This document shows positions 28,774 to 53,097 of a stretch of 64,000 nucleotides of DNA, piece by piece (positions within the stretch are counted from its first letter, which is position 1; every line of letters begins with the position of its first letter). Origin of the DNA: Fidelibacterota bacterium (GTDB lineage Bacteria; Fidelibacterota; UBA8477; JABMPR01). Position numbers and translations under genes: made by a program. Location of the stretch: NCBI GenBank assembly GCA_018650445.1, contig JABIFX010000203.1, positions 1 through 64,000 of the forward strand. The letters are read 5' to 3'. Under the pieces are notes generated by a model, which was not told where the DNA came from, made no database searches, and saw only the letters and a program-made list of their open reading frames with translations.

Positions 28774-29109
28774 TTAAGCTTCGAGAAAATCCTCGCGCAT
28801 GGGTGAAAAAGTGTCAATGAGCACACCATCTTCAAGACAGATAGCCCCATGTTCGATACCACTTTCAATGACAAAGGCATCTCCAGCAGTTAGAATTTTC
28901 TTCTCACCGCCAAGATTCACTTCGAATGAGCCAGATTCCACATAGGTGACCTGTTCATGGCGATGTTCATGTACATACCCTTCAGCCCCTTTCTTGAACT
29001 CAACTCTAACCAGCATAAGATCTTTGGTATAACCTAGTATCTGACGATCCAGACCTTCCTGAATGTTTTCTACCAGTACATCACTGGATTTTACAAATTT
29101 CGTAGCCAT
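28774..29109 (-). CDS. kdgF: KdgF-like cupin, unsaturated uronate linearising enzyme
   Basis: A 111-aa single cupin. The metal ligands expected for KdgF are in place: H47, H49 and Q53 in GYVHEHRHEQVTYV, and H87 in GIEHGAI. KdgF speeds the opening of 4,5-unsaturated monouronates, released by PL17 or GH105, to the linear keto form (DEH from alginate). It sits between the MFS transporter and the KDPG aldolase. Length and position both fit. Confidence 0.88.
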   Translation of the reverse strand: MATKFVKSSDVLVENIQEGLDRQILGYTKDLMLVRVEFKKGAEGYVHEHRHEQVTYVESGSFEVNLGGEKKILTAGDAFVIESGIEHGAICLEDGVLIDTFSPMREDFLEA

Positions 29110-29119
29110 TCTTTCTCTC

Positions 29120-30427: not shown

Positions 30428-30447
30428 AACAATCTCCTAGAGTATTT

Positions 30448-32649: not shown

Positions 32650-32662
32650 GTGCGCACCGCCC

Positions 32663-33427
32663 TTAAGGCATGTAAAGTCCACCATTAACCTGGATACTTT
32701 GGCCATTCACATAGGCGCCCATATCTGATGCCAGAAATAGAACGACGTTGGCGATATCAATGGATTCACCAAGACGGCCTAAGGGCACCATTCCAGTAAC
32801 TTTCTCATGTACTTCAGGTGAGGTAAAAGTGTTGTGGAAGGCTGTCCCTGCAATAAATCCAGGAGATATAGCATTCACAGTTACACCGTGGCTTGATACT
32901 TCTTTAATGACTCCCTTTGTCATAGTCCAGATGGCACCCTTTGATGCTGCATATGCTGCGGCTCCAGGTCCACCACCATCATGGGCAGCTTGACTTGAAA
33001 AGTTGATAATACGTCCAGCTTTACTTTTGATGAGGTGAGGAATACATACTGAGGTCACCAGAAAAGCAGTTTTGACATTTACATTCATGATGGTATCAAA
33101 GTGGGCTTCATCAAATTCTGCAATGGGTACGCGTTTTATCAAACCACCAGCTACGTTTATTAAAATGTCCAACCCACCACCAAACTCAACTGCAGCATTA
33201 ACAAGATTGGTAACATCATCTTTGTTAGTACAATCAGCTAGAACACCAATGGCATCGCCGCCAGCAGTTTTTATTTCATCTACCTTGGCTTGTAAGGCAT
33301 CTGCATCCATGTGGTTATTCAAAACCACTTTTGCTCCTTGAAGTGCCAACAGTTTGGCTGTCTCGAAGCCTATTCCCTGGATACTTCCAGTTACTAGCGC
33401 AGTTCTCCCTTTTAGATCAGTACTCAT
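32663..33427 (-). CDS. SDR oxidoreductase, probable DEH reductase
   Basis: A 254-aa SDR with TGSIQGIG, an NVAGG variant of the NNAG motif, SS…YAASKGA and a classical C-terminus. It lies directly upstream of PL17 and in one operon with kdgF, kdgK and eda. No other enzyme in the alginate operon could reduce DEH (4-deoxy-L-erythro-5-hexoseulose uronate) to KDG, so this role is a strong contextual inference. Sequence alone only says SDR. Confidence 0.78.
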   Translation of the reverse strand: MSTDLKGRTALVTGSIQGIGFETAKLLALQGAKVVLNNHMDADALQAKVDEIKTAGGDAIGVLADCTNKDDVTNLVNAAVEFGGGLDILINVAGGLIKRVPIAEFDEAHFDTIMNVNVKTAFLVTSVCIPHLIKSKAGRIINFSSQAAHDGGGPGAAAYAASKGAIWTMTKGVIKEVSSHGVTVNAISPGFIAGTAFHNTFTSPEVHEKVTGMVPLGRLGESIDIANVVLFLASDMGAYVNGQSIQVNGGLYMP

Positions 33428-33518
33428 TGTGAATCCTTTCCGGTTTTAATCTTTTTATAATATATCATACTTATTTATTGCGGATCTTTATCCCAGTACA
33501 TCTACTAATCAATCCGCA

Positions 33519-34238
33519 TTATTGGTTTAAAATTTTATATGAATGTTCTTCGGCAACAGCCAGATGACCCATCATGGCTTCCCTGGCTCCTTCTGCATCC
33601 TGATCTTGGATGGCATCAAAGATCTTTTGATGAAAATCCACGGCTTCGCTAAGGGCGTTATCAACTGTGCTGTAAACAATAGTTCTGATACGTGGCATGA
33701 GACGGAATATTGGATCCATCTGTAGGGCAATGATGGGATTCTTGGTTGCTTCGCAGATCCTGAGGTGAAAATTCTGATCGATCTCTCCTTGATAGGCAGA
33801 GTCTAAGGCATCACTCTTTTTTAGATCTGAAAGGTTTTTTTCCAGAAACTTGACATCAGCTTCATTGCGGTTACGAGCAGCCATCCAGGCGATCTGAGGT
33901 TCAAACATTTTCCTCACCTCAACAACCTGAATGATTAGTTCGGAGTCCAAATTCATCTCGAGGTAACGACTCATGGGTTTTATAGCATGGGATGAGTTGT
34001 ACTCACTTACATAGATACCACTCCCCTTGCGGATGGTGATGAGACCCTGAATACTCAGCATCTGCAGAGCTTCCCTCAAAGCCGTACGACTGACACCGAA
34101 CATCTCACACATTTCTTTTTCGGTGGGAAGTTTGTCTCCTGGGATAAATTTTTTCTGGAGAATGGATTTCTCGATCTCACTTTGAATTTTGTTACTCAGG
34201 GTTTCAGTGTTGCCTACTTTGGAGTAAGTATACATCAT
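33519..34238 (-). CDS. GntR-family regulator, FadR/FCD subfamily
   Basis: A 239-aa regulator with a winged-helix domain (GDKLPTEKEMCEMFGVSRTALREAL … IRKGSGIYV, residues 11-78). An all-helical FCD domain follows, with metal/effector-binding His residues in DQNFHLRICEATKNP, HQKIF and GHLAVAEEH. FCD regulators respond to sugar acids, among other ligands. Inside the alginate operon it is the likely controller of the TGTATGACA sites found upstream of the TonB operon and the stand-alone PL6 genes. Its start overlaps the preceding lyase by four bases. Confidence 0.9.
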   Translation of the reverse strand: MMYTYSKVGNTETLSNKIQSEIEKSILQKKFIPGDKLPTEKEMCEMFGVSRTALREALQMLSIQGLITIRKGSGIYVSEYNSSHAIKPMSRYLEMNLDSELIIQVVEVRKMFEPQIAWMAARNRNEADVKFLEKNLSDLKKSDALDSAYQGEIDQNFHLRICEATKNPIIALQMDPIFRLMPRIRTIVYSTVDNALSEAVDFHQKIFDAIQDQDAEGAREAMMGHLAVAEEHSYKILNQ

Positions 34239-35515
34239 TTCTTTTCCTCGATATTCTGGCCCAAGTTCATTTCTACATAAGCCGATGTGGTCAGGATGTA
34301 TGGTGAATTAGGAAATGTGGAGCCAAGCGTTTTTAGTGCCTGTTTATAGCGTTCATCCGGCCATTTGGACTGGCAATATGCCAGTAGAAAAATCATTTTT
34401 TCGTTCGATCCAGCCATACTGGATATCTGGGTATGTTTCCAAGGCTGCTCATTAAGAGCAAATGGAATTAAATAGTCGATGGCCTGCTTCAAAGCAGAGT
34501 TGTCACTACCATGTTTTGATAGATCAATACCATAGCTGTCTGCCAATATAGCGGTGCGAACCAAGGCTGAAAGGTTGAATACAGAATAGCTATATGATTT
34601 GGTACGCCCCAATTCTTCGGGTTGTGCACCTGAACTCTCAAACTGTTTTTCGAAACGGTTCCTTTGAATACTTCCTGCAACCTCTCTACCTACTTCAGAA
34701 TTGCCGCAGTATAGACTTAAGGCCAACAGTTGGAAATCACACCAGGAACCATGGTTATTGGTGCGAGCCCGTTCCTGCTGGCCCAAGTCACTTGTCACTA
34801 ACCAATTTAAAAAATCTGTCATCCATGATTTGAATTTGAGATGATCTTCATCTGTCCAGTGGATGGATCCTTCTAGGAGAACCTCATATTCGGTAAGAAA
34901 AACAAAATTTCGTGATTCAATGATTCCCACTGACCTGCCATCTGAACGACCAGGAATAAATTGGCCATAATTCAAGTTAGGATTCATGCGGGTATCGGGA
35001 TTAAGGAACCAAACCTTCAAAAACTCGACTGCTTTTTGAGCGTACTTCTCGTCCTCCGTGAAATAATACATGAGCACAAAAGCTCTTACGGCCTGCGCCA
35101 TTGTAGCGCCTGGGACTTTATCAAATTGAACCCGCTCAGGATTAACTACACCATCTTGACGAATATAAGGCAGACCATCTTCTTTATCTGGATCTGGCCA
35201 CCAGTATGGCCCCATACTTGTGTAATCATGCATGTCCCCACTAGGTGGAGGATTGTTCTTATCCATGACCGAAGGTGGGTCGAGCTCCATTGCCATGCTG
35301 GTCTGTGATTCAAGGAGCTGGAAGGGAATAATAAATAGACTGTCTCCTGCAGCAATACCAGCTTTTGCTTGAGCAAGAGCTTGAACATTTAAAACCGTAG
35401 AGAATAGCTGATTTGTGCTATCAGCTACCAGAGGTGCCACTGGTTTAGATGCGCATGATTGCGCACCAATACCAAGCAGAATGAGAAAAGTCAATTTAAG
35501 GGAAATATTGAACAT
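34235..35515 (-). CDS. Alginate_lyase-superfamily protein (PL5/PL38-like), probable lipoprotein
   Basis: A 426-aa protein with a signal and a Cys at about 21 (GAQSC). The Alginate_lyase pattern matches that of the operon A paralogue: GPYWWPDPDKEDGLPYIRQDG, RMNPNLNYGQFIPG, ERARTNNHGSW and LGRTKSYSYSVFNL. It is probably an endo- or exo-acting alginate lyase, given its place between PL6 and the GntR gene. The two paralogues are clearly diverged, so they likely have different substrates. Confidence 0.78.
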   Translation of the reverse strand: MFNISLKLTFLILLGIGAQSCASKPVAPLVADSTNQLFSTVLNVQALAQAKAGIAAGDSLFIIPFQLLESQTSMAMELDPPSVMDKNNPPPSGDMHDYTSMGPYWWPDPDKEDGLPYIRQDGVVNPERVQFDKVPGATMAQAVRAFVLMYYFTEDEKYAQKAVEFLKVWFLNPDTRMNPNLNYGQFIPGRSDGRSVGIIESRNFVFLTEYEVLLEGSIHWTDEDHLKFKSWMTDFLNWLVTSDLGQQERARTNNHGSWCDFQLLALSLYCGNSEVGREVAGSIQRNRFEKQFESSGAQPEELGRTKSYSYSVFNLSALVRTAILADSYGIDLSKHGSDNSALKQAIDYLIPFALNEQPWKHTQISSMAGSNEKMIFLLAYCQSKWPDERYKQALKTLGSTFPNSPYILTTSAYVEMNLGQNIEEKK

Positions 35516-38220
35516 TATTTGATAACCGTCATTTTTGTCATATAATTCTCAATACCCGTACTCACCTTGCATAAGTATACGCCAGATTCAAAAGCATTGA
35601 GATTGAGAGTAAGTTTGTGTGCACCAGCTGTCAATTTGTGTGAAATGGGATGAAGAAGTTGTCTTCCAGTTAAATCGAAGAGTCGTACATCAACCTGACT
35701 ATCGCGTTCCAAGGATAATTGGAGGGTGGTCTCTCCATTAAAAGGGTTAGGATAATTGCTTAACAACTGATGAGAGCCAATGGGCTGATCATCAATTGAT
35801 TGAATAATGCTAGGATCATGGCGACGTCGATCTCCATATGCTACCCCTTGATTGCCTGGGTAATCATAGAGGACTGAGGCCGCTAGTAAATCAAACTGAC
35901 CTTCTGCTGGGTTTGAGAATAGTGGATCTTCATAAAGAATACCTTCTCCCAGAGTCACATTAGGATGCAGGGTTATATCTCCACAGGAATTCGCGTTGGT
36001 ATACATGATCTGCGACCACGAGTACAATTCCACCAGACTGGCGAACTGACTGGATTGAGAAAAAATGCTGTTCTGGATCGTAGCTACATCGACGTTGCGT
36101 GCATTAATCACAGGTACGTTGTCGTATCCGCAGTAATAGAAGGTACAATGATTCACCATAACCACTGGACCACCAGAAAAGGGATTCGTGTCTCCCCCAT
36201 AGATGCTGAGTACAGTTTTTGAGATGTTCCAGAAGGTGCAATCTTCCAAAAGAACCTGATTTGCACTATATAGTCCGCTTTCATCCTCAGTAACATCCAG
36301 TGCAAACACCTCACCATCAATATCTTGAAAATCACACCTGATGAATGCGAGTGAATCGGCAAAGCTTCCAGGATTAACCTCAAGCAGTGTGGCATCATCG
36401 CCTACTGCACCTATATTCTGGAAATTTACGTCCCTGAAGCCAAGAGAATACCATTGAGTCGGATTATCATAATTTGCATGAAATACTCTTTGAGTGCGTG
36501 TACCCAGAGTCCCACCACCATCAATGGTAACACCTGATATTTTTAGAATCCCGCCACCTCTCACATCAAACATGCTAGAGATAGCAGCCGCAGGGCGGAT
36601 GATAGGAATTTCATTGAGGGCTGGGTCGGGCAGGATGAGAATATCGCGATCAATTAGGACAGGCTCATCGAGGGTATACTCAGACCCTGTTAAAAATAAT
36701 GTATCTCCTGGTAGTATGAGTGCGGCAGCCTCAACCAATGTGTTTAAACCAGCCTCTACATAGATGTTGTCCGACTCGATATAGAACCAGTCTGGTCCTA
36801 CATCTTCTGCAAAAAGAGGCGAATAGACAATGGGATCAGAAGATACCTGGTCTGCGCCGATATCGCTTGAGACTCCCCTGGTCTGACCATCCATATCGGT
36901 GTCAATGGTGTAATCAAGTGTTGCAGCCTGACCTATCAGTGGACTTCCAGATTGTGGTCTGGCCAGCACATCACTTGTAAACTCAAATAGTGGATCCTGC
37001 CAGATGTTACCGTCACTGGTATCGGGAATCCCCAAGGCACTTCCAATAACCATATTTTGTAAAAAAGTAGTTCCCTCTGGCAATCCTTCAATGTCACCGG
37101 TGTAGAATACCGCACGATTACCGGCAAAAACTGCATTGTTGGCTATGGTATTATTGATTGGTGGTAGTGTCTGATCACTAGAGCTTCCATACCCCATCAA
37201 AAAGGATTGACGACAATCTATCAGGGTGTTGTGAGCGATAAGCGTATTCTCTACTTGAAAATATCTGTTAAGAGGTGAATCCTCCACTCCCTTGACCATG
37301 GTGATCGCAGAACGGTAGCCATTTCCCTGAAGGCCATGGAAGTAGTTGTTGATGATAGTGTGGTCAGTACCGATGATGCGGACGCCACCAGCCTCATCAT
37401 TGCCCTCGCCAATAAAGAAATTTCCCTCGACCAGACAACGATTACCATGTCTGAGCGTTAAAGTGCCTTCATTATCAATAAAGGTGTTGTTGAAGTAGAC
37501 ATTCTCGCAGGATTTGTTGGAGATTATTTCAATCTCACCATCGCAGCGTTCAAAAACATTGTGGCGTACGATGCTTCGGGAATTGGTCATTGACCAGGTA
37601 CTGGTACCGATACGGATGGTTTCTCCTCCGTTAAACCCCAGTGGTGGTCTGTATCCAAAATAGTTGTATTCGATAATGTGATGGTTATCTCGATCTTGCT
37701 CTTCGGAGAGCCAGATCACAAAAGTTGCACCATCATGATTTTTTCCTGCAAAATAGCAATGATCTACTTGATTGTTTTGTCCATACATGGAAACCCATTT
37801 GTAATTGTTTCCTATGCTGGAAGGGTTGTAGTTAAAAATTGTAGTATTGGTAAGTCGGCAATTGTTGGCTCTGGTTCCAGAGCGTCTAAACTCGATTACG
37901 CCACCACTACTTGGAGAGCCCTCTGAAAAGTTCAATCCATCGATGACAATGTATGAGCCTGAAAAATTTAGTTTTGAGTTCCCGGTTAGAATTACCTGTC
38001 CAGGAGTCTCAGCCAAGAGCACAACAGGATTTTCCTCGGTACCCACAGCGTGAAAAGAGATGGGTTGATCTGTCCAGACACCATTTTCCATAAGCATCGT
38101 ATCGCCTGGAGTCAGGCTACTCATGGCATTCTGAATATCCAAAGCACTGCTAACCGGAATGGTGGCAGCACTGGCACTAATTGCCAGTATGGCTACAAAT
38201 AGGTATCTGATGATTTTCAT
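35515..38220 (-). CDS. Two-domain PL6 alginate lyase with sorting tail
   Basis: A 901-aa protein: signal peptide (to about 18); PL6 catalytic beta-helix (about 20-470); a second beta-helix (about 485-800), as in AlyGC-type enzymes; and a C-terminal sorting domain (LLSNYPNPFNGETTLQLSL…GVYLCKV). The catalytic Lys and Arg are K236 (ISNKSC) and R257 (LTLRHG), 21 residues apart. NNYFHGL coil repeats and GGVRI are typical of the family. It is expected to be surface or secreted and to cut alginate. Its ATG lies just after a strong hairpin in the operon. Confidence 0.9.
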   Translation of the reverse strand: MKIIRYLFVAILAISASAATIPVSSALDIQNAMSSLTPGDTMLMENGVWTDQPISFHAVGTEENPVVLLAETPGQVILTGNSKLNFSGSYIVIDGLNFSEGSPSSGGVIEFRRSGTRANNCRLTNTTIFNYNPSSIGNNYKWVSMYGQNNQVDHCYFAGKNHDGATFVIWLSEEQDRDNHHIIEYNYFGYRPPLGFNGGETIRIGTSTWSMTNSRSIVRHNVFERCDGEIEIISNKSCENVYFNNTFIDNEGTLTLRHGNRCLVEGNFFIGEGNDEAGGVRIIGTDHTIINNYFHGLQGNGYRSAITMVKGVEDSPLNRYFQVENTLIAHNTLIDCRQSFLMGYGSSSDQTLPPINNTIANNAVFAGNRAVFYTGDIEGLPEGTTFLQNMVIGSALGIPDTSDGNIWQDPLFEFTSDVLARPQSGSPLIGQAATLDYTIDTDMDGQTRGVSSDIGADQVSSDPIVYSPLFAEDVGPDWFYIESDNIYVEAGLNTLVEAAALILPGDTLFLTGSEYTLDEPVLIDRDILILPDPALNEIPIIRPAAAISSMFDVRGGGILKISGVTIDGGGTLGTRTQRVFHANYDNPTQWYSLGFRDVNFQNIGAVGDDATLLEVNPGSFADSLAFIRCDFQDIDGEVFALDVTEDESGLYSANQVLLEDCTFWNISKTVLSIYGGDTNPFSGGPVVMVNHCTFYYCGYDNVPVINARNVDVATIQNSIFSQSSQFASLVELYSWSQIMYTNANSCGDITLHPNVTLGEGILYEDPLFSNPAEGQFDLLAASVLYDYPGNQGVAYGDRRRHDPSIIQSIDDQPIGSHQLLSNYPNPFNGETTLQLSLERDSQVDVRLFDLTGRQLLHPISHKLTAGAHKLTLNLNAFESGVYLCKVSTGIENYMTKMTVIK

Positions 38221-38272: not shown

Positions 38273-41200
38273 TTACTTGAGCAACATGAGCTTCTTAACA
38301 TCAGAGAACTCACCGCTTGTTAGACGATAGAAATAGACACCACTGGCTAATGCAGAACCATTAAAGGTTACTGTATAGCGTCCTGGAGCCATATTCCGGT
38401 TTACAATCTGTTCCAGTTCCCTACCCCGTACATCATAGAGAATCAAGCGTGTATCTGCAGTCTCGATCAGATCGAAGGAGATTGTTGTGCTTGGGTTGAA
38501 GGGGTTAGGATAGTTCTGATTCAGAGCGTAGACCTCTGGGATAAATAGATCATCAAGAGATGTCGTATAATCCTCATCATTGTACCAGAGTGTTACTTCT
38601 GTATCACCGGTGACATCAAGAACACGATTTGGTCCGCCACCAGGAAATTCTGATGTATCCCAGTTAGCGTTAATCCTGAACTTGAATTCATGATGGAGAT
38701 CACCCAGAGCTGGAATCTCAAATGTGACTGACCAGATAGAATCTGCGCCAGTATCCATCATCCAAGTTCCTTCCCAGTTATTGAGAGTACCTACGATATC
38801 CAGAGAATCTACTGCTGGATCGAAGTTACCTGCAAAGATCTGGAAACCCATGCGTGCATTCAGTGTTACCTCATACATCGGTGTACTGAAATCTGCATAA
38901 ATCATCTTGTTGGCATCCATCGTTACTGTAGAAACAGCATCTGTGGATACAAGATCACCAGTATAGCCATCAAACTGAGCCAATGAATCTGGTGTGGCTG
39001 TCAGCGTCACAACTGTACTTGGAGCATAGAACTTCAAGGTTGGTTGTGGACTGAGTTCGACCATACCAGGACCTTCTACCATAATATCGATTGCTGCATG
39101 AGCAGTTATGTTGGTAGAAGTGGCCCAACGCAGATCACCAATTGCAGCAGATTCATCATTCTGAAGATGATATGCATATGAATCATCAAGCAGAGTGTAA
39201 TCTTCAGCAGCAACATCAGCGAACATTGGATCATACCAGAATACATCTGGACCCAAGGTTGCATCATCTCTCATCTGAAGATCCATTGCAACATTATTCA
39301 GAAGTAGATTGTCTACATATGAGTTCTCACCGGCAATACGTAATCCATAATCATAAGTAGTGTTGGGTACGTTGTTGATGATTGAGTTTGTAAAAGTCAC
39401 ATCAGTTGTGTTTTCAATGCGAACTGCACCAAACTTGGCACCTTCAGTTCCGTAACCATGACCACATGTGTCAATGGTCAAATGATCCATAACGATTACT
39501 GGATTCATGGTCTTCAGATAAAGAACTTCCCGTCCGATACGTTTGAACGTACTGTTGGTTAGAACAATACTTGCTGCGTCACCGACAGAGTTCATAAAGA
39601 TTCCTTCTTTACCAATATCTTCAACAACGCAACCATCGAAGATCATGGAATCAACATAAGCAGAAGGATAGTTCTTGTAGAAAGCTTCTTTGGTTGATTT
39701 GAAATCAACCCCAAAAGCTCTAATGGAGGTATGAAAACCAAAGTTATCCGTATCATCTGCGCGGATGAGATATTTAGCTTGAACAGTAGCTCCGTCCATC
39801 CATCCGTCGATACCGACGTTCTTCAGAGTCAGGTGTCCATCCATCTTCAGTCTGAAGAAACCTTCAGAACTTGAACCACCAGTTGAAGAGGTGTAACCCT
39901 TGATCCATGGCTTAGCTGACAAGGTATCAGCACCAAGGATCTCAACCGTCTGGTCAATAACGAGTTCGGGCATCTTACCCTCTTCACGAGAATCTTCAGC
40001 TGGTACATAAGGACCAACGTCAGTCAGGAGAATGCGGTATGCCTGAGAGTTATTCCCAGTGTACTCCAGGGCATCGAATAGATCCCAACTAGAGTCAATG
40101 GCAAGTATGCCATCAGGATGGCTGATCTCGGTGAAAGTAGCAGTTACTGCCATATCGGCAGCAAGCGTGATTACCAATGGGTTGTCCATTGAAGTAACAT
40201 CGCCACTCCAACCACCAAATTCCCAACCCAACGGGGCTGTCGCGGTGACGGTCAGCTCAGTTCCAGCATCATAGGTATCAAAACCAGGAACTGGCATTGG
40301 ATCTACAGAAACTGATCCCATACCGACTGTGGCTGTCGTTAACATAGCCTGAGTCTGTGTTGATCTGAACATGGCTGTAAAGCTGGTATCAGCATCAATG
40401 AGGTAATAAATATCACCATCAGCAATACTATCCAGAGCAGCATTCACCCAATAGGCAAATTCCCAGTTGGCTGAATCAGCAACTGCAACTAGCTCAAGGG
40501 TATCACCTTCGATGTATTCATCAAGAGGATACTGATGTCCAACGGTTTCCACGATGTGACCATAGCCAATAGTGGCTAGATCAATCTGATAATTCGTAAG
40601 TGTTGGCACAAAATGAGCCGTTACGTTACGAGATTCAGTCATCGTGATAGTAGCAACAGGATTCGTAGGTGGGAAAACAATCACTGGATCCCAGTGATCA
40701 AATGCCCAGTATTCTGCAGGAACAGCTGTCAGAGTAACCACCTGGTCTTCTCCATACACACCACCTGGAGGATCAAGTTCGATGGAACCTTCTCCAACGA
40801 TAAAGGTATTCAAGAAGTAAACACCCAGGGCTGGGGCCCAACGGGTATCACCAACAGAACCACCATCATCTGCAAATGAATACAGTGGTGAGGTTTCAGG
40901 AATGGAGAAATCAGCATTGGCTGCATCAGCAAACATGGGATCCATGTGAACGGTATCTGTTGGAGTCGCTGAACCCGTTTCAAAGTTCAACATATCCCAG
41001 ATAGCATTATGATGGAACAGATTTGCACTCTCACCTAGGTCAGCAAAATCCTCACTTAGGTCAGTGTTATCATTATGAACAAAGATGCTATTCTTAATTT
41101 CCAGATCTGTGATCAGACGGAATCGCATCATTGGTTTGTTCTCAACGCTTCCACAATCATATACTGTTACTCTGTCGATCAAAATGCGTGCATCGGCATA

Positions 41201-43750
41201 GCTCTCAGATTTGATGGCTTCGCGTTCCATAGCATAGATGGTTGTATTTGATACTTCACCATAATTCAATATGGTTGCAGGATCACTGGATGAACCTGAA
41301 TAGAACATGATTCCTTCAGATGCACCATTGTAGAACACACTGTTTGTAACAACCAGTGAATCGATTCCTGAATTTCCGTAAGGCTTAATAACCTTGTCAG
41401 CAAAATCATGAGCGACCACGTTGTCAACAAACAGACTTGTCAATGCAGTTGGATCAGAATTGTCAATACGTACAAAGTATTTGACCAAACTGCCATCATC
41501 ACGATTACCATCAAATTCAAGATTTGATACGGCTAGACGTACATTGGCTTCTGGTCTCAAGAAATATGAACTTGAACCACCATTATATTTAACGATGGGT
41601 TGTGTTGCCAGTCCAGCAGAACCACGAATGGTAAGACTATGTGGCACCTCTATATCATCATCATTGACATAGATTCCCTCAGAGACTAGCTCAAGGATGT
41701 CACCAGCTGCTGAAGCAGCAATTGCATCTTGTAATGCATTTGGCAGATCATTGGTAACCTCTGTTACCACGACTACTACAGCTTCAATCCAGCGGCTATC
41801 ACCAACAGAACCACCATCATCACCATATGTGAGCAGTGCAGCATTACCAACGGTGTAATCAGCATTTGCAGCATCTGCAAACATGGGATCAGCATGAAGT
41901 GTATCAGCAACGGTAGCATTACTCACTTCAGTATTGATCACATCCCAGACCACATTGTTATGGAATTGGTTGTTGGCAGTTGCCATATCAGCGAATTCCT
42001 CGCCAGCATCAGCATTGGTGCTATTGTAGAAAATACTGTTTTTGACAGTCACATCATCAGCATCACGGAAATAGATCATAGATTTATTTCCACCATTGCC
42101 ACAACCATCCAGGGTCAATCTATTGAGCAGGACAGTTCCACCAGTACTCGTCTGGTTTTTGATAGCTTCACGATCCGTATCCATGATGGTCGTATTTGAA
42201 ATCTCTACATAATTGTAGACCGCTGCTGGATCAGACGATGAGCCAGAATACAGTGTGATACCTTCTTTAGGTGTATTGGCAAACATGGAGTTTGTCACAA
42301 CCATGGAATCCACACCAGCGTTCCCATAATACTTGATCATTTTCTCGTTATAATCATGTACATAGACATCATCGATAAAAAGATCAAGCGTTGCAGTTGG
42401 ATCATCATTTCTTACAATGAAAAAGTATTTGGCCAGAGCAGCACCACCTTCAGCAACACCATCACCGTCAAATTCAATTCCAGAGATAGAGATGCGAGGT
42501 GAGCCGATACCTTTCATCATATAGGCACCAGTTGAGGTACCGACATACTTCACGACTGGTTTATTAGGTAACAGATCCCAGGCACGAATTGTAATATCTT
42601 CTTCAATAACAATCTGTGAAGTATTCAGATATACACCGTCTGAAACCAATTCAATAACATCACCAGCAATGGCGTCAGAGATGGCATCGGCCATAGCATT
42701 GGTATCAGCATTTGTGATCTGATAGACTGCAGGTTCACGATTGGGGATCCAGTAGGAATCTCCAACAGATCCACCATCATCAGCAAAGGTGTATAAATCC
42801 ATATTGAGAACTGTAAAATCACCCGTGGCTGCATCAACAAACATAGGATCAGTGTGAAGCGTATCAGCAACTGTTGCATTGCTTACTTCAGTATTGATCA
42901 CATCCCAGACAACATTGTTGTGGAATTGATTGTTTGATGTAGCCATGTCAGCGAATTCTTCGCCAGCATCAGCATTGGTGCTGTTCGCGAAAATACTGTT
43001 TTTGACGGTCACATCATCAGCATCACGGAAATAAATCATGGATTTGTTGCCACCGTTTCCACAGCCCACAATGGTCATCCTGTCGAGTACCACAGTTCCA
43101 CCAGGACTTGTCTGGTTTTTAATGGCTTCACGATCGGTATCCATGATGGTCGTATTAGAAAGTTCTACATAATTGTAGACCGCTTTAGGATCACTTGAAC
43201 TACCTGAATACAGGGTGATACCTTCTTTAGGCGTATTGGCAAACATGGAGTTTGTCACAACCATTGAGTCCACACCAGCATTTCCGTAATACTTAATCAT
43301 CTTCTCATTGTAGTCATGTACATAGACATCATCGATAAAGAGATCTAGTGTTGATAGTGTGTCATCATTTCTGACAATAAAGAAGTATTTTGCCAATGCA
43401 GCGCCACCCTCAGCAACTCCATCACCATCAAATTCAATACCAGAAATATTAATGCGTGGAGACCCCACACCTTTAAACATATAAGCACCTGTAGAGGTAC
43501 CCACATATTTATAGACTGGTTTGTTGTCCAGCCATTCGGCAGCTCGAATGGTAATATCTTTATCCAGCACAATCTGAGTCTTGGATAGATATACACCATC
43601 TACTGTCAATTCCAGAATATCACCAGCCAATGCAGCATCATATGCTGTGACCAGGGATGAATCTGAATCGTTGACTACTGGAATCACTGCAGCCTGCAGC
43701 ATTCCAAATGCCAGTGTCATGAGACACACGGCAATAAGTAGTTTCTTCAT
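38273..43750 (-). CDS. Giant secreted beta-helix repeat protein, likely alginate-binding, with sorting tail
   Basis: The track start (43762) is replaced by the ATG at 43750, which follows a GGGAGG ribosome-binding site. This gives about 1825 aa. Order: signal peptide; three beta-helix modules of about 320 aa, the first two very similar; two or three InlB-type repeats (GSIELDPPGGVYGEDQVVTL, WEFGGWSGDVTS); a fourth beta-helix; another InlB repeat; a short Ig-like/carbohydrate-binding-like domain (DIVGTLNNWEG); and a sorting domain (LNQNYPNPFNPSTTISFDL). The helices resemble the C-terminal helix of two-domain PL6 enzymes, but the catalytic Lys…Arg-His-Gly pair is missing. A binding or scaffolding role on alginate is inferred. 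Confidence 0.75.
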   Translation of the reverse strand: MKKLLIAVCLMTLAFGMLQAAVIPVVNDSDSSLVTAYDAALAGDILELTVDGVYLSKTQIVLDKDITIRAAEWLDNKPVYKYVGTSTGAYMFKGVGSPRINISGIEFDGDGVAEGGAALAKYFFIVRNDDTLSTLDLFIDDVYVHDYNEKMIKYYGNAGVDSMVVTNSMFANTPKEGITLYSGSSSDPKAVYNYVELSNTTIMDTDREAIKNQTSPGGTVVLDRMTIVGCGNGGNKSMIYFRDADDVTVKNSIFANSTNADAGEEFADMATSNNQFHNNVVWDVINTEVSNATVADTLHTDPMFVDAATGDFTVLNMDLYTFADDGGSVGDSYWIPNREPAVYQITNADTNAMADAISDAIAGDVIELVSDGVYLNTSQIVIEEDITIRAWDLLPNKPVVKYVGTSTGAYMMKGIGSPRISISGIEFDGDGVAEGGAALAKYFFIVRNDDPTATLDLFIDDVYVHDYNEKMIKYYGNAGVDSMVVTNSMFANTPKEGITLYSGSSSDPAAVYNYVEISNTTIMDTDREAIKNQTSTGGTVLLNRLTLDGCGNGGNKSMIYFRDADDVTVKNSIFYNSTNADAGEEFADMATANNQFHNNVVWDVINTEVSNATVADTLHADPMFADAANADYTVGNAALLTYGDDGGSVGDSRWIEAVVVVVTEVTNDLPNALQDAIAASAAGDILELVSEGIYVNDDDIEVPHSLTIRGSAGLATQPIVKYNGGSSSYFLRPEANVRLAVSNLEFDGNRDDGSLVKYFVRIDNSDPTALTSLFVDNVVAHDFADKVIKPYGNSGIDSLVVTNSVFYNGASEGIMFYSGSSSDPATILNYGEVSNTTIYAMEREAIKSESYADARILIDRVTVYDCGSVENKPMMRFRLITDLEIKNSIFVHNDNTDLSEDFADLGESANLFHHNAIWDMLNFETGSATPTDTVHMDPMFADAANADFSIPETSPLYSFADDGGSVGDTRWAPALGVYFLNTFIVGEGSIELDPPGGVYGEDQVVTLTAVPAEYWAFDHWDPVIVFPPTNPVATITMTESRNVTAHFVPTLTNYQIDLATIGYGHIVETVGHQYPLDEYIEGDTLELVAVADSANWEFAYWVNAALDSIADGDIYYLIDADTSFTAMFRSTQTQAMLTTATVGMGSVSVDPMPVPGFDTYDAGTELTVTATAPLGWEFGGWSGDVTSMDNPLVITLAADMAVTATFTEISHPDGILAIDSSWDLFDALEYTGNNSQAYRILLTDVGPYVPAEDSREEGKMPELVIDQTVEILGADTLSAKPWIKGYTSSTGGSSSEGFFRLKMDGHLTLKNVGIDGWMDGATVQAKYLIRADDTDNFGFHTSIRAFGVDFKSTKEAFYKNYPSAYVDSMIFDGCVVEDIGKEGIFMNSVGDAASIVLTNSTFKRIGREVLYLKTMNPVIVMDHLTIDTCGHGYGTEGAKFGAVRIENTTDVTFTNSIINNVPNTTYDYGLRIAGENSYVDNLLLNNVAMDLQMRDDATLGPDVFWYDPMFADVAAEDYTLLDDSYAYHLQNDESAAIGDLRWATSTNITAHAAIDIMVEGPGMVELSPQPTLKFYAPSTVVTLTATPDSLAQFDGYTGDLVSTDAVSTVTMDANKMIYADFSTPMYEVTLNARMGFQIFAGNFDPAVDSLDIVGTLNNWEGTWMMDTGADSIWSVTFEIPALGDLHHEFKFRINANWDTSEFPGGGPNRVLDVTGDTEVTLWYNDEDYTTSLDDLFIPEVYALNQNYPNPFNPSTTISFDLIETADTRLILYDVRGRELEQIVNRNMAPGRYTVTFNGSALASGVYFYRLTSGEFSDVKKLMLLK
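41780..43700. repeat. Tandem 960-bp internal repeat within the beta-helix gene
   Basis: Two adjacent copies with a period of 960 bases (320 codons) are plain at DNA level. For example, CCATGATGGTCGTATT starts at both 42181 and 43141 with matching flanks. A third, more diverged copy follows at about 40.85-41.78 kb. The first two therefore arose by a recent duplication or are kept similar by recombination. Confidence 0.85.
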
Positions 43751-43765
43751 GTTACCTCCCATTTC

Positions 43766-45247
43766 CTATTTGAGTAATATCATTTTATTAATACTTGAAT
43801 TGTTTCCCTGACGTAATTCGTAGAAATAGAGACCTCCAGCCAATTCTGATGCATCGAAATCAACGGAATAGTTCCCTTCCCACATAAATTCGTCTCTCAG
43901 GGTTGCCACCACCTGCCCAAGCACGTTAAAAACCACTAGACTGGTAAAGTCCGGACGATTGATTGTGAAATCAATTTTAGTGCTGGGGTTGAATGGATTT
44001 GGATAGTTTTGTTCTAAGCTAAAACTGATTGGTTTTACTTGAGGATCTGTTCCAACTGCAGGTGGATTGGTGGCCCAACGGGGATCTCCAATAAAGCCAC
44101 CATCACTACCCCTACTATAGAGTTGGGGAGCGTTTACTTCATAATTGCCATTGGCAGCATCGGTAAAATCTGGATCATAACCATAAATTGTGCTCTCATC
44201 GTGATCAGCACCCTTGCCACTCTGAATCCGCTCTTCTGCATACATTGTATAATACAGGTTAAAGGTGTCAATGTTTGCGATGTATGATGTGCTCAACTGA
44301 ACGTGCATGGTATAATCACCACGATCGGGCCGGTTTATAGATGTAGTCCTACCGTTGGCAACCAGGACATCGCGTACAATAGTCTGACGATAGTTCTTGG
44401 CATAGATAAAGCGAGGAGCACAATTTACGGCTGTCACTTTTTCGATGAGAGTTAAACCATCAACATATGTCGGTCCCACGAAGCTTGTATCCGTATCACC
44501 ATAGATACGCACACACTCGGCATCAACATCATCAAAGGTACAATTGCGAACAATGAGTGTATCGTAGGCTATTGTGCCACTCGTGCCGAAGGGATATTTT
44601 TCACCTTCAGAGATACGAATCGCTTCATCACCAATATCTGTAAAAGTACAACCCTCAATGAGGATTTTGTGGGCATAGATATGATCGTTAGTCACATCCA
44701 GGGGTCTTTGAAAATAGAGAACATTCCCCTGCATATCCTGATCACCCTCAGAGTGGAAGCTGTTAAAATCACAGTCTTTGATGGTAATGTTAATATCAGA
44801 GTCAGCTAGGTGGATCTGACCAGTTCCAGTATCTTCAAAGTCGCCATACCGGAGAGCATACTTCAAACCACGTGGTTGATCTAGAGCACCTTCAAAGCGA
44901 ATTCCGTTAAACTCAACTGTACTCTGGATGCGGAAAATCTCCATTGAGCTACTGGTATCAGGATTTGAATGGGTCAATATTGGTTTTTCAGCCAGTCCTG
45001 GAGCTGCCATGATGACGACTGGGCTATTGATCACCAATGGAAAAGTATCTGAAGTTGTATACTCAAATCCACTTGTAGTAAGTAGTACTGTATCTGCACC
45101 CTGAGCTACAAAATTCAGCACATTTTTAAAATCTCCCTCGTACCACGCCTCCCAGTTTTCCTCTCCTACTTCAATGAGGGTTGGAATCTGAGCAAATGAC
45201 GTTACCGCCACCAGCACTGATAAAAGAGATAGTTGCAGTTTCTTCAT
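43766..45247 (-). CDS. Secreted beta-helix protein related to PL6 C-terminal domain, with sorting tail
   Basis: A 493-aa protein: signal (MKKLQLSLLSVLVAVTSFAQ); one right-handed beta-helix module with coils such as EFNGIRFEGAL, IEGCTFTDIGDEAIRIS and IVRNCTFDDVDAECVRIYG; then a sorting domain (LEQNYPNPFNPSTKIDFTI). The YDPDFTDAANGNYEV…GGFIGDPRWA end of the helix is the same as in each module of the 1825-aa neighbour. No PL6 catalytic Lys/Arg pair is seen. It is probably a surface binding protein. Its ATG follows GGAGG, and 15 bases separate it from the next gene. Confidence 0.72.
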   Translation of the reverse strand: MKKLQLSLLSVLVAVTSFAQIPTLIEVGEENWEAWYEGDFKNVLNFVAQGADTVLLTTSGFEYTTSDTFPLVINSPVVIMAAPGLAEKPILTHSNPDTSSSMEIFRIQSTVEFNGIRFEGALDQPRGLKYALRYGDFEDTGTGQIHLADSDINITIKDCDFNSFHSEGDQDMQGNVLYFQRPLDVTNDHIYAHKILIEGCTFTDIGDEAIRISEGEKYPFGTSGTIAYDTLIVRNCTFDDVDAECVRIYGDTDTSFVGPTYVDGLTLIEKVTAVNCAPRFIYAKNYRQTIVRDVLVANGRTTSINRPDRGDYTMHVQLSTSYIANIDTFNLYYTMYAEERIQSGKGADHDESTIYGYDPDFTDAANGNYEVNAPQLYSRGSDGGFIGDPRWATNPPAVGTDPQVKPISFSLEQNYPNPFNPSTKIDFTINRPDFTSLVVFNVLGQVVATLRDEFMWEGNYSVDFDASELAGGLYFYELRQGNNSSINKMILLK

Positions 45248-45256
45248 GCTGCCTCC

Positions 45257-46795
45257 TTATTTGATAGAATAAATATAACTCACAGTAAAGGACGTCCCCT
45301 GCTCACGTGAGTAGTTTGTATTTGAATAATAATTGTCTTGGTACTTCATGTCTTGAATCTCATAACCCAGATCAATACCACCTAGCATACCTAGATCTAC
45401 TTCCAAGCCAAATCGATAGGCTACGGCTTCTGGACCACGATCCCTAATGGCTGAACCATCAGGAATATAACTCATTGGTACTGAGCGATATAGGGCATTT
45501 ACATTAACCATTTTATGTAGTTGATAGCGCATGCCAAATTGGACGATCGATTGGTCTACCCAGGCTTGCATATCACCCATTGAAAAGTTTGATAATGTAT
45601 CTCTGGACAATTCGGAATCACCATATGGATGCAGTTCATAACTGAGTAGAAAGGTAAATTTCTCTACGGGCATGAGCTGTACACCTACGCCATAACTGGC
45701 AGGAATTGTCAGGATACTCTGCCCTTCAATGGTGGATGTACTTGATGTAAGCAGGGTATCATCCTGGAGGTAGGTCAGGGTCTCCTCGTAACTCCAATCT
45801 TTGGTCAAATCCATTTTTGAGGTATAGGACAAGCCCATTCGAAAATGGTCATAATCCAGAACTAACCCCAGTTTTAGCGCTGATCCTGAAAAATCTGCAG
45901 TACCAGAGTACTTGGTATTCATGGTATCATAGGACCAGATGAACTCGTTTTGATCGATGAGGTCAAAATATCCAACCTTGTCCTGTATCTGAAGTTCATC
46001 AGAGCTTCCTGAATACATAGATAAACCGAGACCTAAATGAATGTTTTCGGTAGCCTCAAACCCTACCCCCACGCTTATCTGACTAAGATTCATCTTTTGT
46101 AGCCGCTCAAAATCATACCAATCAATCCGGGTTGTATCAGACCCATCAGCCATTGCGGGCATTTCATAGTCTACATACCCAGGATGTGGTGTCAGATAGG
46201 TTGTATTTCGATCATAACTAATCCCATTTAACAAGGATGCATATCCTGCGCTAAAGGCAAACTTTTTACCTGCTATGTTTACAGGCAACGCGACACCAAT
46301 ATGGCTCAGGCCGCTAACAGCTTCTTTTTGCTGCCAATCGGCTGCTGCTTCTGAGAAATGTTCCAAACCCATTTCAGGGTTTGAAACGAGATAGGAAGTA
46401 TCCAACAAGGATTCAAAGAATACATCTGAATCTAACCTACCATTATTGACTGGGTCGGGAACATAGAGTCCTTCCAGGTAAAAAGGCAGGGTCACAAACA
46501 GTCTATTTGGACGATAATGCTGATTCTCCCACCATTTATTCTCTATACTCAATAGCCCGGTACTTACAGTGAGTCCAGTGATCCCTGACAATCCTGCAGG
46601 ATTAGCGAATATGGATGCAGAACCGCCCAGATCAGAGATGCCATCTAGTCCACTACCAAAAGCCCCTGGCGTGAAAGTGAGGGCCTTATCTACACCCTGG
46701 AAGGAAAGGATATTGCCCCTGTTTTGGGCCTGGACATTCATGAGGAAGGCCAGAACCAGAAAACTTGTCAAAAAATATGATATTTTGCGTCTCAT
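45257..46795 (-). CDS. Outer-membrane beta-barrel protein (FadL/OmpP1-like)
   Basis: A 512-aa protein with a signal peptide (…VLAFLMNVQAQ). Regularly alternating beta-strands end in an aromatic/basic strand (GTSFTVSYIYSIK), as in outer-membrane barrels. The N-terminal GGSASIFANPAGLSGI is the typical OmpP1/FadL- and PorV-like plug motif. It follows the PorV-like gene by 11 bases. It may be a porin for oligosaccharides or a secretion-system accessory. Exact role unknown. Confidence 0.65.
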   Translation of the reverse strand: MRRKISYFLTSFLVLAFLMNVQAQNRGNILSFQGVDKALTFTPGAFGSGLDGISDLGGSASIFANPAGLSGITGLTVSTGLLSIENKWWENQHYRPNRLFVTLPFYLEGLYVPDPVNNGRLDSDVFFESLLDTSYLVSNPEMGLEHFSEAAADWQQKEAVSGLSHIGVALPVNIAGKKFAFSAGYASLLNGISYDRNTTYLTPHPGYVDYEMPAMADGSDTTRIDWYDFERLQKMNLSQISVGVGFEATENIHLGLGLSMYSGSSDELQIQDKVGYFDLIDQNEFIWSYDTMNTKYSGTADFSGSALKLGLVLDYDHFRMGLSYTSKMDLTKDWSYEETLTYLQDDTLLTSSTSTIEGQSILTIPASYGVGVQLMPVEKFTFLLSYELHPYGDSELSRDTLSNFSMGDMQAWVDQSIVQFGMRYQLHKMVNVNALYRSVPMSYIPDGSAIRDRGPEAVAYRFGLEVDLGMLGGIDLGYEIQDMKYQDNYYSNTNYSREQGTSFTVSYIYSIK

Positions 46796-46806
46796 GCTGA
46801 CATTCC

Positions 46807-47772
46807 CTAAATATTAATAAAGCCAATGCTAAAGCGATGAACACCACTGTATTTCTCACCGTAATCGCTATAGCCATAATTCAAAGCAAGTCGTTTCAAT
46901 TTGAAACCCAATCCAAAATTGAAACCCTGTGTATCATAATTGATCCGATACCCGGATCTGGCAAATACCAGATCATTAAAAGAATATTCTGCCCCAATAT
47001 TGTACTGCTGCGCATAATCGCGGGGCTGCACCAAATCCACTGTCACAAGCAGGTCATGCATGGGACTCTTCATCAACAGAGGATTGTCTGCGCCCAGGAT
47101 GTGAGAGGACAGTCCAATGTTCATTGTCTGTGGTAATGGATAGCTCTGCTCCTCGTATTTCACCTGAGGACCAAAATTTCTAACTGTTGCAGCAAGAATA
47201 ATACTCTTATACCCGGAATTATAAAGAACTCCAAGATCCCAGGCTAACAGCTCTTCACTGTCAACAGAGAGATCCTCAATGACATATTTGGATGTGAGAC
47301 CATATGAGAATTTGTCAGTAAGCTGTTGGCTTATTCCAATTCCCATATCCGTAGCTCCCATGGTAATGGTTTCACCAGTTAGACCCGGATTAAAAACACC
47401 ATTTACAAAACCCAGATTAGCAATATCAGTTACTTCAATAGAGCCATAATCGATTGACATGCCATAAACACCTACAGCAATACTCCCAAAACCCCAGGAA
47501 GCAGCTACACTGGTGTGTTGAGTTTCAAACATGTAATCAGTTTGTGAAATAAAGGTTCCTAAACCTTTCTGGTACACGAGAGCCGCTGGATTTCCATAGA
47601 GACTAGCAGTACCTCTGGAGATGGCAGCATAGGCACCACCCATTGCAGCAATCCGTGGGTCCGGAGAAATTTTCATGAATTGAAACGATGTCACTCCGAC
47701 TTTTTCAAATCCTAAAGCATTGATTGATAGGATCATGAGCAGGAGTACAATTATATCAACTTTTTTCATCAT
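46807..47772 (-). CDS. PorV/PorQ-family outer-membrane protein
   Basis: A 321-aa beta-barrel protein with signal peptide. It has the PorV/UPF0164 hallmark FMKISPDPRIAAMGGAYAAISRGTASLYGNPAAL and an outer-membrane end strand (HRFSIGFINI). In type IX secretion PorV shuttles cargo proteins from the translocon to the surface-attachment machinery. Its presence beside several sorting-tail proteins suggests a dedicated copy for this operon. A second possible start two codons apart (MMKK) does not matter. Confidence 0.78.
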   Translation of the reverse strand: MMKKVDIIVLLLMILSINALGFEKVGVTSFQFMKISPDPRIAAMGGAYAAISRGTASLYGNPAALVYQKGLGTFISQTDYMFETQHTSVAASWGFGSIAVGVYGMSIDYGSIEVTDIANLGFVNGVFNPGLTGETITMGATDMGIGISQQLTDKFSYGLTSKYVIEDLSVDSEELLAWDLGVLYNSGYKSIILAATVRNFGPQVKYEEQSYPLPQTMNIGLSSHILGADNPLLMKSPMHDLLVTVDLVQPRDYAQQYNIGAEYSFNDLVFARSGYRINYDTQGFNFGLGFKLKRLALNYGYSDYGEKYSGVHRFSIGFINI

Positions 47773-47782: not shown

Positions 47783-50104
47783 CTACTTCACTATGACAAA
47801 TTTACCGTTGGAGGTAGCACCATCAGGAGTCGTCACCACATAGAAGTAGAGTCCTGAGGCCATTTCCTGCCCCACACGGGTTGTTTGAAAATTCAGATTA
47901 GAATAAACAGCTTCATCATGTTCAATGGTTCTCACCAGTTGCATGGCATAACTATAAATCTGGATCGTACATTTTGCAGGCAGGGCATAAAAACCAATCT
48001 TACCCTCATCTGTACCACTAAACGATCCCTTACTGGCGATATATGGATTTGGCACGACACGGATGGCTCCCATTTCCTCAACCGCAGCAATGTTTTTGCC
48101 AAAACGAGTGACATTGCTCTTGCCACTCTGTTCTCCTGCATCATCTACAGAAGTCACAGCATAATAGCGATATTCACCTACTCTAAAGGTTTCTTCAGTA
48201 TCGACATACTCATAAAGATTATCCGAATTTAGAGGATCACCTACGATGACACTATCTACCAGAGTCCAGGGACCCATACCCGCTGCTGATCTCCAGACAA
48301 AATATTTTTCCAGAGTTGTAGTTAGCAGGGGATGTTCAAATTGCTCCTGATCAGCGCGCCAGGTCAGCTTGATTGTTGCTCCTTCATAATTTGCAACAGT
48401 AAGGATTGGAGCTGGGTACGGTGCAGGAATTGTATACACACCATCTTTAGGATGTGCTTCTGGCCAAACAGGTGCTGTGGGTGCTGTACCTAGATAAGTC
48501 TCAAACGCCTTCTCAGTAACTTCAGTCACATTTCTGACGGTCTTGGAATTGACATAGTCAGGATATCCAAAATCATCGAGGTATGCGCTGGTCATTAGCT
48601 GACCATCAACTGTATAGGCACGGTTCCAGCTTGGTGTGCTGGTCCACTGTGTTATAACCTGACCACCTTCAATTCTCTTGCCTGGTTCGGCCCCATATCC
48701 AACCACTTCAGCATAGCTAAACTCAATTTTATCACCGATTGAGAGACTGTAGGGTCCAAAAGTATGGTGTTTCATTCCAGCATCAGCACTCTGCCTGTAG
48801 GGATAGGCTGCACGTCCAACCCAGTGATAGCCCTTTTCATAATTCCAGGCAGTACTCCCTGGTGAATGCACTCCACTCCAACGTGTATTAGGATTAAATG
48901 CATCCTTTTCATACATCATCTTGGGACTATTTGTGTTTCCTGTTGAGACTTTGTTAGACCAGGGTTGTTTGATGTGATTATTTTCATCAATCTCATAGTA
49001 CCATGTAAAAGATCCACTTTCATTCTCACGGTAGATATCAACTCCGGAGCGTCCATCCCAGGTATCAAAATCAGCCTGATCCTCTAGAGTATTGGTTCTA
49101 AGGGCGGCCTGGGTTTCTGAGTCATTTTGACCCAAACTATCCAGCGCTTCAGGGACAACATAGGCCAGATGAGTCGTATCATAGAAAAGAACAGCATAGC
49201 CAGGTGCCTGGGGAGATCCCAGAGCGCCACCATTTTTGCCAGTTTGAGCGAATTCCATAAATAAATCTGGATCTAGTTCAGGATTTGCAGCACCAGCATT
49301 ATCTGTAAGATTATTTCTCAGATTCATATTGAAGGACAACCACCAATCTGAATCCCAAAAATTGTTCTGATCTCCACGGTAAATACCGCCAGTATATTTC
49401 CATTCAAGATAGGTTCGTTGATAACCGTACATGGATGGGGCGAATCCATAATTGAGGGCAACCATGACATCTTTGAGATCTTCAGTTTGTTCGATAGTTG
49501 CAGGATTTCCATCCAGATCACCGGTGTATTCCAGTTCATACTCATATATGATCATATCATCATAGTCTGGGTAACTCCATGCACGAGAGGTTCTCGTTAC
49601 CGTGATACCAGTAGAGGTAGCCCAAGAGGTTCTGATGATTTCTTCGGCTTCATTGGGATTGTAGTCAAGATTCAGAGTTCCATCTTCCAGAAGGGGGAAG
49701 TTCTCAATCTCTTCCATGTACAGAGGAAAGGACCAACGTCCGATGGAAACTTCAGGGGATCCTGCTCCTACCCCACCGCACAATGCAAAGAGTCGGTCGA
49801 TTTCACCAGGAGCACTTGCTAAATTTGCACCGATATAAAAACCGGCCCCTAGAATATTGTGCTGACCATCATATTCGATACCCTCAATGATGGTTTTTGA
49901 GTAGGGTGGCCATTCAAACACTGGAACACTTGTAAAATTTCCAGCTTCACCAGTCTGCCAGGCACGACCAATCTCACCTGTATTAAAAACCGTATTATGC
50001 AACATACCACGGTCATGTATTTTGTATTCCCTAATCTGCCCATAGGCAAAACTCACAAAAAGCAGGATCAGGGAAATCGAAAGTGTGTGTTTTAAGATTT
50101 TCAT
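47783..50104 (-). CDS. Secreted protein with C-terminal sorting domain, partner of TonB receptor (unknown function)
   Basis: A 773-aa protein with signal peptide (…LLFVSFAYGQ). It has a large beta-rich domain, a fibronectin-III-like segment (PAPILTVANYEGATIKLTWRAD … YRYYAVTSVDDAGEQSG) and an RVVPNPYIASKGSF…GLYFYVVTTPDG tail of the type IX-like class. I do not recognise the main domain. Its position 19 bases after the TonB receptor gene is where SusD would be in Bacteroidota. It may therefore be the surface glycan-capture partner, but it shows none of the helical TPR character of SusD. Confidence 0.6.
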   Translation of the reverse strand: MKILKHTLSISLILLFVSFAYGQIREYKIHDRGMLHNTVFNTGEIGRAWQTGEAGNFTSVPVFEWPPYSKTIIEGIEYDGQHNILGAGFYIGANLASAPGEIDRLFALCGGVGAGSPEVSIGRWSFPLYMEEIENFPLLEDGTLNLDYNPNEAEEIIRTSWATSTGITVTRTSRAWSYPDYDDMIIYEYELEYTGDLDGNPATIEQTEDLKDVMVALNYGFAPSMYGYQRTYLEWKYTGGIYRGDQNNFWDSDWWLSFNMNLRNNLTDNAGAANPELDPDLFMEFAQTGKNGGALGSPQAPGYAVLFYDTTHLAYVVPEALDSLGQNDSETQAALRTNTLEDQADFDTWDGRSGVDIYRENESGSFTWYYEIDENNHIKQPWSNKVSTGNTNSPKMMYEKDAFNPNTRWSGVHSPGSTAWNYEKGYHWVGRAAYPYRQSADAGMKHHTFGPYSLSIGDKIEFSYAEVVGYGAEPGKRIEGGQVITQWTSTPSWNRAYTVDGQLMTSAYLDDFGYPDYVNSKTVRNVTEVTEKAFETYLGTAPTAPVWPEAHPKDGVYTIPAPYPAPILTVANYEGATIKLTWRADQEQFEHPLLTTTLEKYFVWRSAAGMGPWTLVDSVIVGDPLNSDNLYEYVDTEETFRVGEYRYYAVTSVDDAGEQSGKSNVTRFGKNIAAVEEMGAIRVVPNPYIASKGSFSGTDEGKIGFYALPAKCTIQIYSYAMQLVRTIEHDEAVYSNLNFQTTRVGQEMASGLYFYVVTTPDGATSNGKFVIVK

Positions 50105-53053: not shown

Positions 53054-53084
53054 GCAGGTACTCCCTCTTTCAATAATATGAATG

Positions 53085-53097
53085 ATGTATGACACAT
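53085..53097. promoter_or_regulatory. Putative GntR operator (proximal), TonB operon
   Basis: ATGTATGACACAT is a near-perfect palindrome (ATGT-N5-ACAT) containing TGTATGACA, 32 bases upstream of the preferred TonB-receptor ATG. The same 13-mer recurs at 53200. Confidence 0.6.

Follow-up and report, generated by a model that had tools for sequence, protein, structure and literature searches.

We analysed a 64,000-nucleotide stretch of DNA, hereafter the window (positions 1 to 64,000 of contig JABIFX010000203.1, Fidelibacterota bacterium), whose source is a 3.9-Mb metagenome-assembled genome (MAG) of 273 contigs assigned to Ca. Neomarinimicrobiota. On its minus strand, between genes for outer-membrane import and genes for alginate lyases, two neighbouring genes encode proteins built from beta-helix modules. 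An initial annotation, made from the letters alone, had described two adjacent secreted proteins of 493 and about 1825 aa; the open reading frames (ORFs) are real, lie 3 bases apart and end in tails of the type IX secretion system (T9SS), with the larger protein measuring 1829 aa. Both belong to a series of minus-strand genes that are tightly packed or overlap, in which 9 bases lie between the 493-aa gene and the upstream barrel gene and 52 between the gene for the larger, array protein and the downstream PL6 lyase gene. Their parts are as follows, M1 to M4 being the array modules and HMM a profile hidden Markov model.

43766..45247, minus: single-module protein, 493 aa, with a signal-like N-terminus, one DUF4957/DUF5123-type beta-helix and a T9SS tail
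44063..45172, minus: its beta-helix module, aa 26-395 (module HMM, E 8e-87)
43778..44005, minus: its T9SS type A sorting domain (PF18962 / TIGR04183)
38273..43762, minus: array protein, 1829 aa, four modules (ORF, Pfam and module HMM)
42737..43687, minus: array module M1, aa 26-342 (module HMM; 81% identical to M2)
41777..42727, minus: array module M2, aa 346-662 (module HMM)
40826..41770, minus: array module M3, aa 665-979 (module HMM; 46-48% identical to M1/M2)
40124..40810, minus: spacer of three divergent InlB B-repeats, aa ~985-1213 (PF18998, E 1e-24)
39113..40111, minus: array module M4, aa 1218-1550, of a separate clade (module HMM, tree)
38867..39097, minus: further InlB-like spacer, aa ~1556-1632 (sequence reading only)
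38528..38845, minus: possible carbohydrate-binding domain, aa ~1640-1745, a weak match (PF16760, E 0.089)
38285..38512, minus: T9SS type A sorting domain of the array protein (PF18962 / TIGR04183)

The module HMM was built from the window's modules and then refined on relatives. It finds four full modules in the array protein (E at most 2e-86 for each) and a single one in the 493-aa protein, so that the four modules and InlB-type spacers first read from the letters are borne out by this HMM and by Pfam. Pfam cut-offs are reached by both T9SS tails and by three InlB B-repeats, which occupy 3 stretches (best 1141-1213) whose outer limits were drawn by eye. The carbohydrate-binding-like domain that had also been proposed is a weak candidate, the segment matching CBM53 below the Pfam cut-off and matching no PDB chain.

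In Pfam terms the modules belong to DUF4957 and DUF5123, a domain pair without an assigned function and with almost no literature. The array protein scores 135.7 bits against DUF5123 (PF17161; four stretches, cut-off 35.1) and 60.5 bits against DUF4957 (PF16318; cut-off 30.8). The 493-aa protein scores a sub-threshold 30.4 bits against DUF5123 and has no DUF4957 match, yet it matches the module HMM in full. Since the modules fall within these families, they do not form the new class that had been supposed, and a likely precedent exists. BT4112 of B. thetaiotaomicron is described in a review as a homogalacturonan-binding surface glycan-binding protein (SGBP; PMC8002723), and a table lists a DUF5123 gene within BT4109-14, between pectin esterases and a TonB receptor (PMC10434189); by list order, BT4112 is probably that gene.

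As the initial annotation held, the modules resemble the second, C-terminal helix of two-domain PL6 lyases, and they do so in sequence, profile and fold. In BLAST comparisons with the C-terminal helices of the window's two PL6 enzymes, M1-M3 match both (E 1e-5 to 1e-11); M4 gives 1e-11 with the 901-aa lyase and only about 0.02-0.05 with the 772-aa lyase, and the 493-aa module gives 1e-9 with the 901-aa lyase and no significant match with the 772-aa lyase. A phmmer search with the array protein recovers BcAlyPL6 (7dmk, residues 435-728, E 9e-14), and the top PDB match of the modules is the same enzyme (residues 428-742), followed by Patl3640, AlyGC and 8bwk. A 15-module profile likewise matches the C-terminal halves of 7dmk (2.5e-39), Patl3640 (7o77), AlyGC (5gkd) and 8bwk.

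Predicted structures agree with these matches. The AF2 model of the 493-aa module (predicted local distance difference test, pLDDT, 74.8; predicted template-modelling score, pTM, 0.81) is mostly beta and the AlphaFold model of M1-M3 is beta-rich (pLDDT 82.2), both with repeated strands; the pTM of 0.43 for M1-M3 means that the relative orientation of the modules is not fixed. For both models, two-domain PL6 lyases head the Foldseek ranking (best for the 493-aa module, 7dmk at E 8.7e-8); the A-module of the AlgE4 epimerase is a weak fold match (E 1.5e-3). The GDxRW ending that had been described as common to modules and lyases is the end of the DUF5123 profile, but the 901-aa lyase has GDRR in its place and the 772-aa lyase is without it. 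The catalytic signatures are lost, as had been noted: the motifs 'RHG' and '[IV]S[NS]KS' occur nowhere in the 493-aa or array protein and once each in both lyases. Neither module protein matches the catalytic helix of PF14592 (Chondroitinas_B) in Pfam, and an AlgE-like DPH[DE] motif was found in neither. In the tree, the PL6 C-terminal domains form one clade (Shimodaira-Hasegawa-like approximate likelihood ratio test, SH-aLRT, 99), separate from the clades of the single module, of M4 and of M1-M3.

What the C-terminal helix does in PL6 lyases has been stated as unknown (PMC11381880). In the modules, each coil contributes a first strand, PB1, and two others, as delimited by DSSP of the predicted models. 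The module HMM matches the PL6 catalytic helix weakly but significantly (E 1e-7 to 1e-11), and this alignment puts the strands that carry the catalytic Lys and Arg-His onto PB1, in coils D and E. Conservation was scored per face with one sequence per genome, using the same six genomes for modules and PL6 C-terminal domains. PB1 is the best-conserved face in M1 (0.73 vs 0.45 and 0.50), M2 (0.68 vs 0.43 and 0.52) and the single module (0.74 vs 0.48 and 0.62; p <= 1e-4 in all three), and less strongly so in the C-terminal array module (0.54 vs 0.35 and 0.52, p 0.018); the PL6 C-terminal domains show their lowest conservation there (0.32 vs 0.38 and 0.51, p_lower 0.016), all these p-values being indicative because the permutation takes columns as independent and the segments were picked by eye from models. 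The PB1 strands of array modules nearly always carry AKY, a Lys in coil B, a Glu in coil C and RE-I-K/R/Y in coil D. Per module, PB1 bears 8.5 Lys/Arg/His in M1-M3, 8.5 in M4 and 7.1 in the single module; the figure is 5.5 for PL6 C-terminal domains and 4.2 for modules of pectin loci. On these modelled faces, the conservation and the basic residues fit a groove for an acidic chain; the pattern would also fit an unrecognised active site.

Some PL6 C-terminal domains (L042 14251-17193, L066 9048-11882 and L067 6830-8530) keep PB1 residues of the AKY / KEG / EA type, and their retention suggests an ancestral site. The window's own lyase is without them.

The surroundings of the two genes are laid out below. 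Their position between import genes and alginate lyases, pointed out at the start, is confirmed by gene order and is kept beside the TonB receptor.

53353..55671, minus: two-domain PL6 lyase, 772 aa (PF14592, E 6e-190)
50123..53095, minus: TonB-dependent receptor-like protein (profile match)
47783..50104, minus: 773-aa protein of no known family, a constant neighbour of the TonB receptor
46807..47772, minus: PorV/PorQ-family protein (NF033709, E 7e-47)
45257..46795, minus: FadL/BamG-like outer-membrane barrel (profile matches)
35515..38220, minus: two-domain PL6 lyase, 901 aa, with a T9SS tail, SNKS/RHG intact and a C-terminal helix homologous to the modules
34235..35515, minus: Alginate_lyase (PF05426) enzyme (Pfam)
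28774..34238, minus: rest of the alginate pathway, namely GntR, a short-chain dehydrogenase/reductase, a PL17-type oligoalginate lyase, a major facilitator superfamily transporter and a cupin

The oligoalginate lyase scores 656 bits to NF042990, under that model's strict cut-off, and a 2-keto-3-deoxy-6-phosphogluconate (KDPG) aldolase and a 2-keto-3-deoxygluconate (KDG)-kinase-like PfkB protein are also present. Judged by their sequences, the PL6 lyases, oligoalginate lyase, KDG-kinase-like protein and KDPG aldolase are the enzymes of alginate use. The genome encodes 113 T9SS tails and SprA, and also a PorU-like protein that scores above its cut-off. SusD_RagB (PF07980) was found neither in the source genome nor in the other listed genomes of its family, and occurs in 26 of the 149 genomes of the phylum. 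The two module proteins have no PF07980 match either, and their models are beta-rich, the SusD fold being helical.

The order TonB receptor, 773-aa protein, PorV-like, FadL-like, single module and array is found in G005 and G019 of the source genus and again in other families (G028, G051, partly G055, G025, G022, G068). Whole or partial, with some loci ending at contig ends, it occurs in Marinimicrobia families f1, f6, f13, f8 and f5 and in a 'Bacteroidetes' MAG (L042). The locus of a Candidatus Neomarinimicrobiota MAG (L041) closely resembles that of the window, and its array protein is 82% identical. Complete arrays in such conserved-order loci hold two to four modules by the module HMM, and the next gene usually encodes a PL6 lyase, or a heparinase-type lyase in G022/G054. 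Whole-genome searches covered the source phylum: among 149 genomes, 15 carry DUF5123, 15 carry PL6 and 12 carry both (Fisher p 1.2e-12), an association that is partly trivial because some DUF5123 hits are the C-terminal half of PL6 lyases. Outside the source genus, eight of ten DUF5123 carriers have PL6 (table 8, 2, 0, 120; p 3e-11).

The family reaches beyond alginate. Proteins of the same make-up, single-module or array, occur in loci that also encode PL1 pectate lyase, pectinesterase, GH28 and GH43 (L063, L068/L077, L060/L079, L065), and relatives adjoin sulfatases and an alpha-L-fucosidase in L032-L035; an alginate-specific family, as first implied, is therefore not what we find. Module clades follow locus type in the tree, the pectin-locus modules forming one clade (SH-aLRT 96). 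At L036 10746-17590 (= L074), two adjacent multi-module proteins lie away from lyases, one of them seemingly fused, as judged by eye, to a metallophosphatase-like domain.

Taken together, we think it likely that both are multivalent surface glycan-binding proteins, exported by the T9SS, that use their PB1 groove to keep alginate at hand for lyases and importer. Both would leave the cell by the type IX system and act within the alginate utilisation locus. Each module is a predicted beta-helix of DUF4957/DUF5123, kin to the PL6 C-terminal helix, that has dispensed with the catalytic Lys and Arg-His-Gly. PB1, the substrate-holding face of the PL6 catalytic helix, would survive as a groove rich in Lys/Arg that holds polyuronate chains but does not cut them. 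Three or four tandem modules, together with the single-module protein, would then give a multivalent hold on alginate close to the TonB receptor and the lyases at the surface; searches of the genus found no SusD (PF07980). Alginate as the ligand is favoured by the gene content of the locus and by the conserved Lys/Arg-rich PB1 face, as far as sequence can indicate. The functional guess of the initial annotation was thus a reasonable one in respect of capture, whereas its 'scaffold' is not supported, because no docking partner domain was recognised and the 901-aa PL6 lyase bears its own T9SS tail.

Several points weigh against this interpretation. The assignment of BT4112 to DUF5123 combines two papers and goes by the order of a list. 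The strands of PB1 were placed by HMM alignments and by DSSP of predicted models, not from coordinates, and the net charge of PB1 is modest because 5-6.5 acidic residues accompany the basic ones. The conserved PB1 residues could serve folding or catalysis, and weak lyase activity of the BcAlyPL6 C-terminal domain is reported in a review (PMC8618178). Finally, among SusD families the search covered PF07980 only, in incomplete MAGs.

The alternative that survives best, although we regard it as unlikely, is that the modules are enzymes, with a rearranged lyase or C5-epimerase site on PB1 in which conserved Lys/Arg/Glu replace the Lys and the Arg-His pair. That PB1 is the most conserved face of the free-standing modules would suit an active site, and at coils D and E, where the alignment places the PL6 catalytic strands, modules M1-M3 keep REAIK and, frequently, the Arg of YFRD; the weak lyase activity reported for the BcAlyPL6 C-terminal domain (PMC8618178) and the weak AlgE4 match point the same way. 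Yet PL6 and AlgE-like motifs are missing from the module proteins, the alignment places Lys/Arg where the catalytic-helix strand has an acidic position, tandem near-copies joined to InlB spacers look like binding arrays, and several lyases already serve the locus. That the free-standing modules constitute a new polyuronate-modifying family of lyases or epimerases, with a rearranged PB1 active site displayed as tandem catalytic surface arrays, seems to us slightly less probable again.

Adhesins commonly have InlB repeats, modules in tandem and T9SS tails, and all three are present here. The proteins might accordingly be adhesins, or structural proteins of the surface, by which the cell attaches to brown-algal or detrital particles without coupling the binding to import; that arrays also occur away from lyases (L036/L074) would agree. 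The gene order beside TonB receptor and lyases, however, is kept across families and module clades track locus type, which leaves this explanation doubtful. Very improbable is a role as assembly or allosteric partners of PL6 lyases with no glycan binding of their own: in BcAlyPL6 the C-terminal domain reportedly gives the pocket its shape and fixes substrate (PMC8618178) and AlyGC dimerises through its C-terminal domain (PMC6879350), but the window's lyases already have their own C-terminal helix, and free modules occur in pectin-enzyme loci with no PL6 seen nearby.

Surface glycan-binding proteins as we propose them would resemble the DUF4957/DUF5123 proteins of Bacteroidota polysaccharide utilisation loci (PULs), exemplified by BT4112, in their Pfam families, adjacent TonB receptor and polyuronate locus. 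They differ from BT4112, compared here by description, in the alginate locus, T9SS export, three to four tandem modules, InlB spacers and lack of a detected SusD. With the PL6 C-terminal helix (7dmk, 5gkd, 7o77) they share detectable sequence homology and the best fold match; unlike it, they are free-standing, tandem and in clades of their own, with a PB1 that is conserved and basic where that of the lyase is variable. SusD/SusE-type SGBPs have a comparable position beside the TonB receptor and a presumed capture role, but the module proteins are unrelated to them in fold and carry a T9SS tail. AlgE mannuronan C5-epimerase A-modules are likewise repeated right-handed beta-helices connected with alginate, although the fold match is weak, DPH[DE] was not found and the spacers are of another type. 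In gene content the locus is like the alginate PUL of Bacteroides eggerthii (PMC11381880), except that no SusD is found here. The novelty lies in the tandem form, exported by the T9SS and encoded at a locus that yielded no SusD, in the PB1 signature, in a TonB-to-array gene order that recurs in several Marinimicrobia families, and in the concerted evolution of the first two array modules.

The opposite course of PB1 conservation, which free modules maintain and the C-terminal domains of lyases have relaxed, names specific residues for binding tests in both. If confirmed, capture by these proteins would explain how a T9SS-bearing marine lineage without detected SusD takes hold of alginate. It is also tempting to consider that one lyase-related beta-helix fold may bind glycans across alginate, pectin and perhaps sulfated fucan loci.

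The arrays also carry traces of their own history. M1 and M2 are sisters within the genome, rather than grouping by position, in the window, L041, L073, L056 and L042 (SH-aLRT 99-100), and in the G028/G055 pair the grouping is within the family. The first two modules, to judge from their sequences, evolve in concert within each genome, and their likeness would follow from repeated duplications or from gene conversion between modules, with the caveat that repeats may collapse in MAG assembly. In G019 the M1 and M2 DNA is identical over ~160 codons, nearly so over another 80, and 64-66% identical in the first 80. At L073 10016-14563, such a mosaic (~160 identical codons, 64-66% in the first 80) may reflect recent gene conversion, duplication or a repeat assembly artefact. 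A milder M1/M2 mosaic is present in the window and L041.

Among the neighbours, the 773-aa protein (47783-50104, minus strand) has no Pfam or PDB match and always lies between the TonB receptor and the PorV-like gene, in alginate and sulfatase/fucosidase loci and, more distantly, in pectin loci. It is a candidate stand-in for SusD. A third PL6-type protein (PF14592; 3332-6280, minus; 982 aa) has a T9SS tail and an InlB-like repeat, and similar PF14592 proteins of about 980 aa occur in several genomes of the phylum. A 569-aa Beta_helix protein with a T9SS tail (25356-27065, minus) sits among uronate catabolism genes and is kept in G005 and G019. Directly beyond the alginate locus, 56670-63992 (minus) encodes a 2440-aa protein like a nonribosomal peptide synthetase, with two condensation and two AMP-binding domains.

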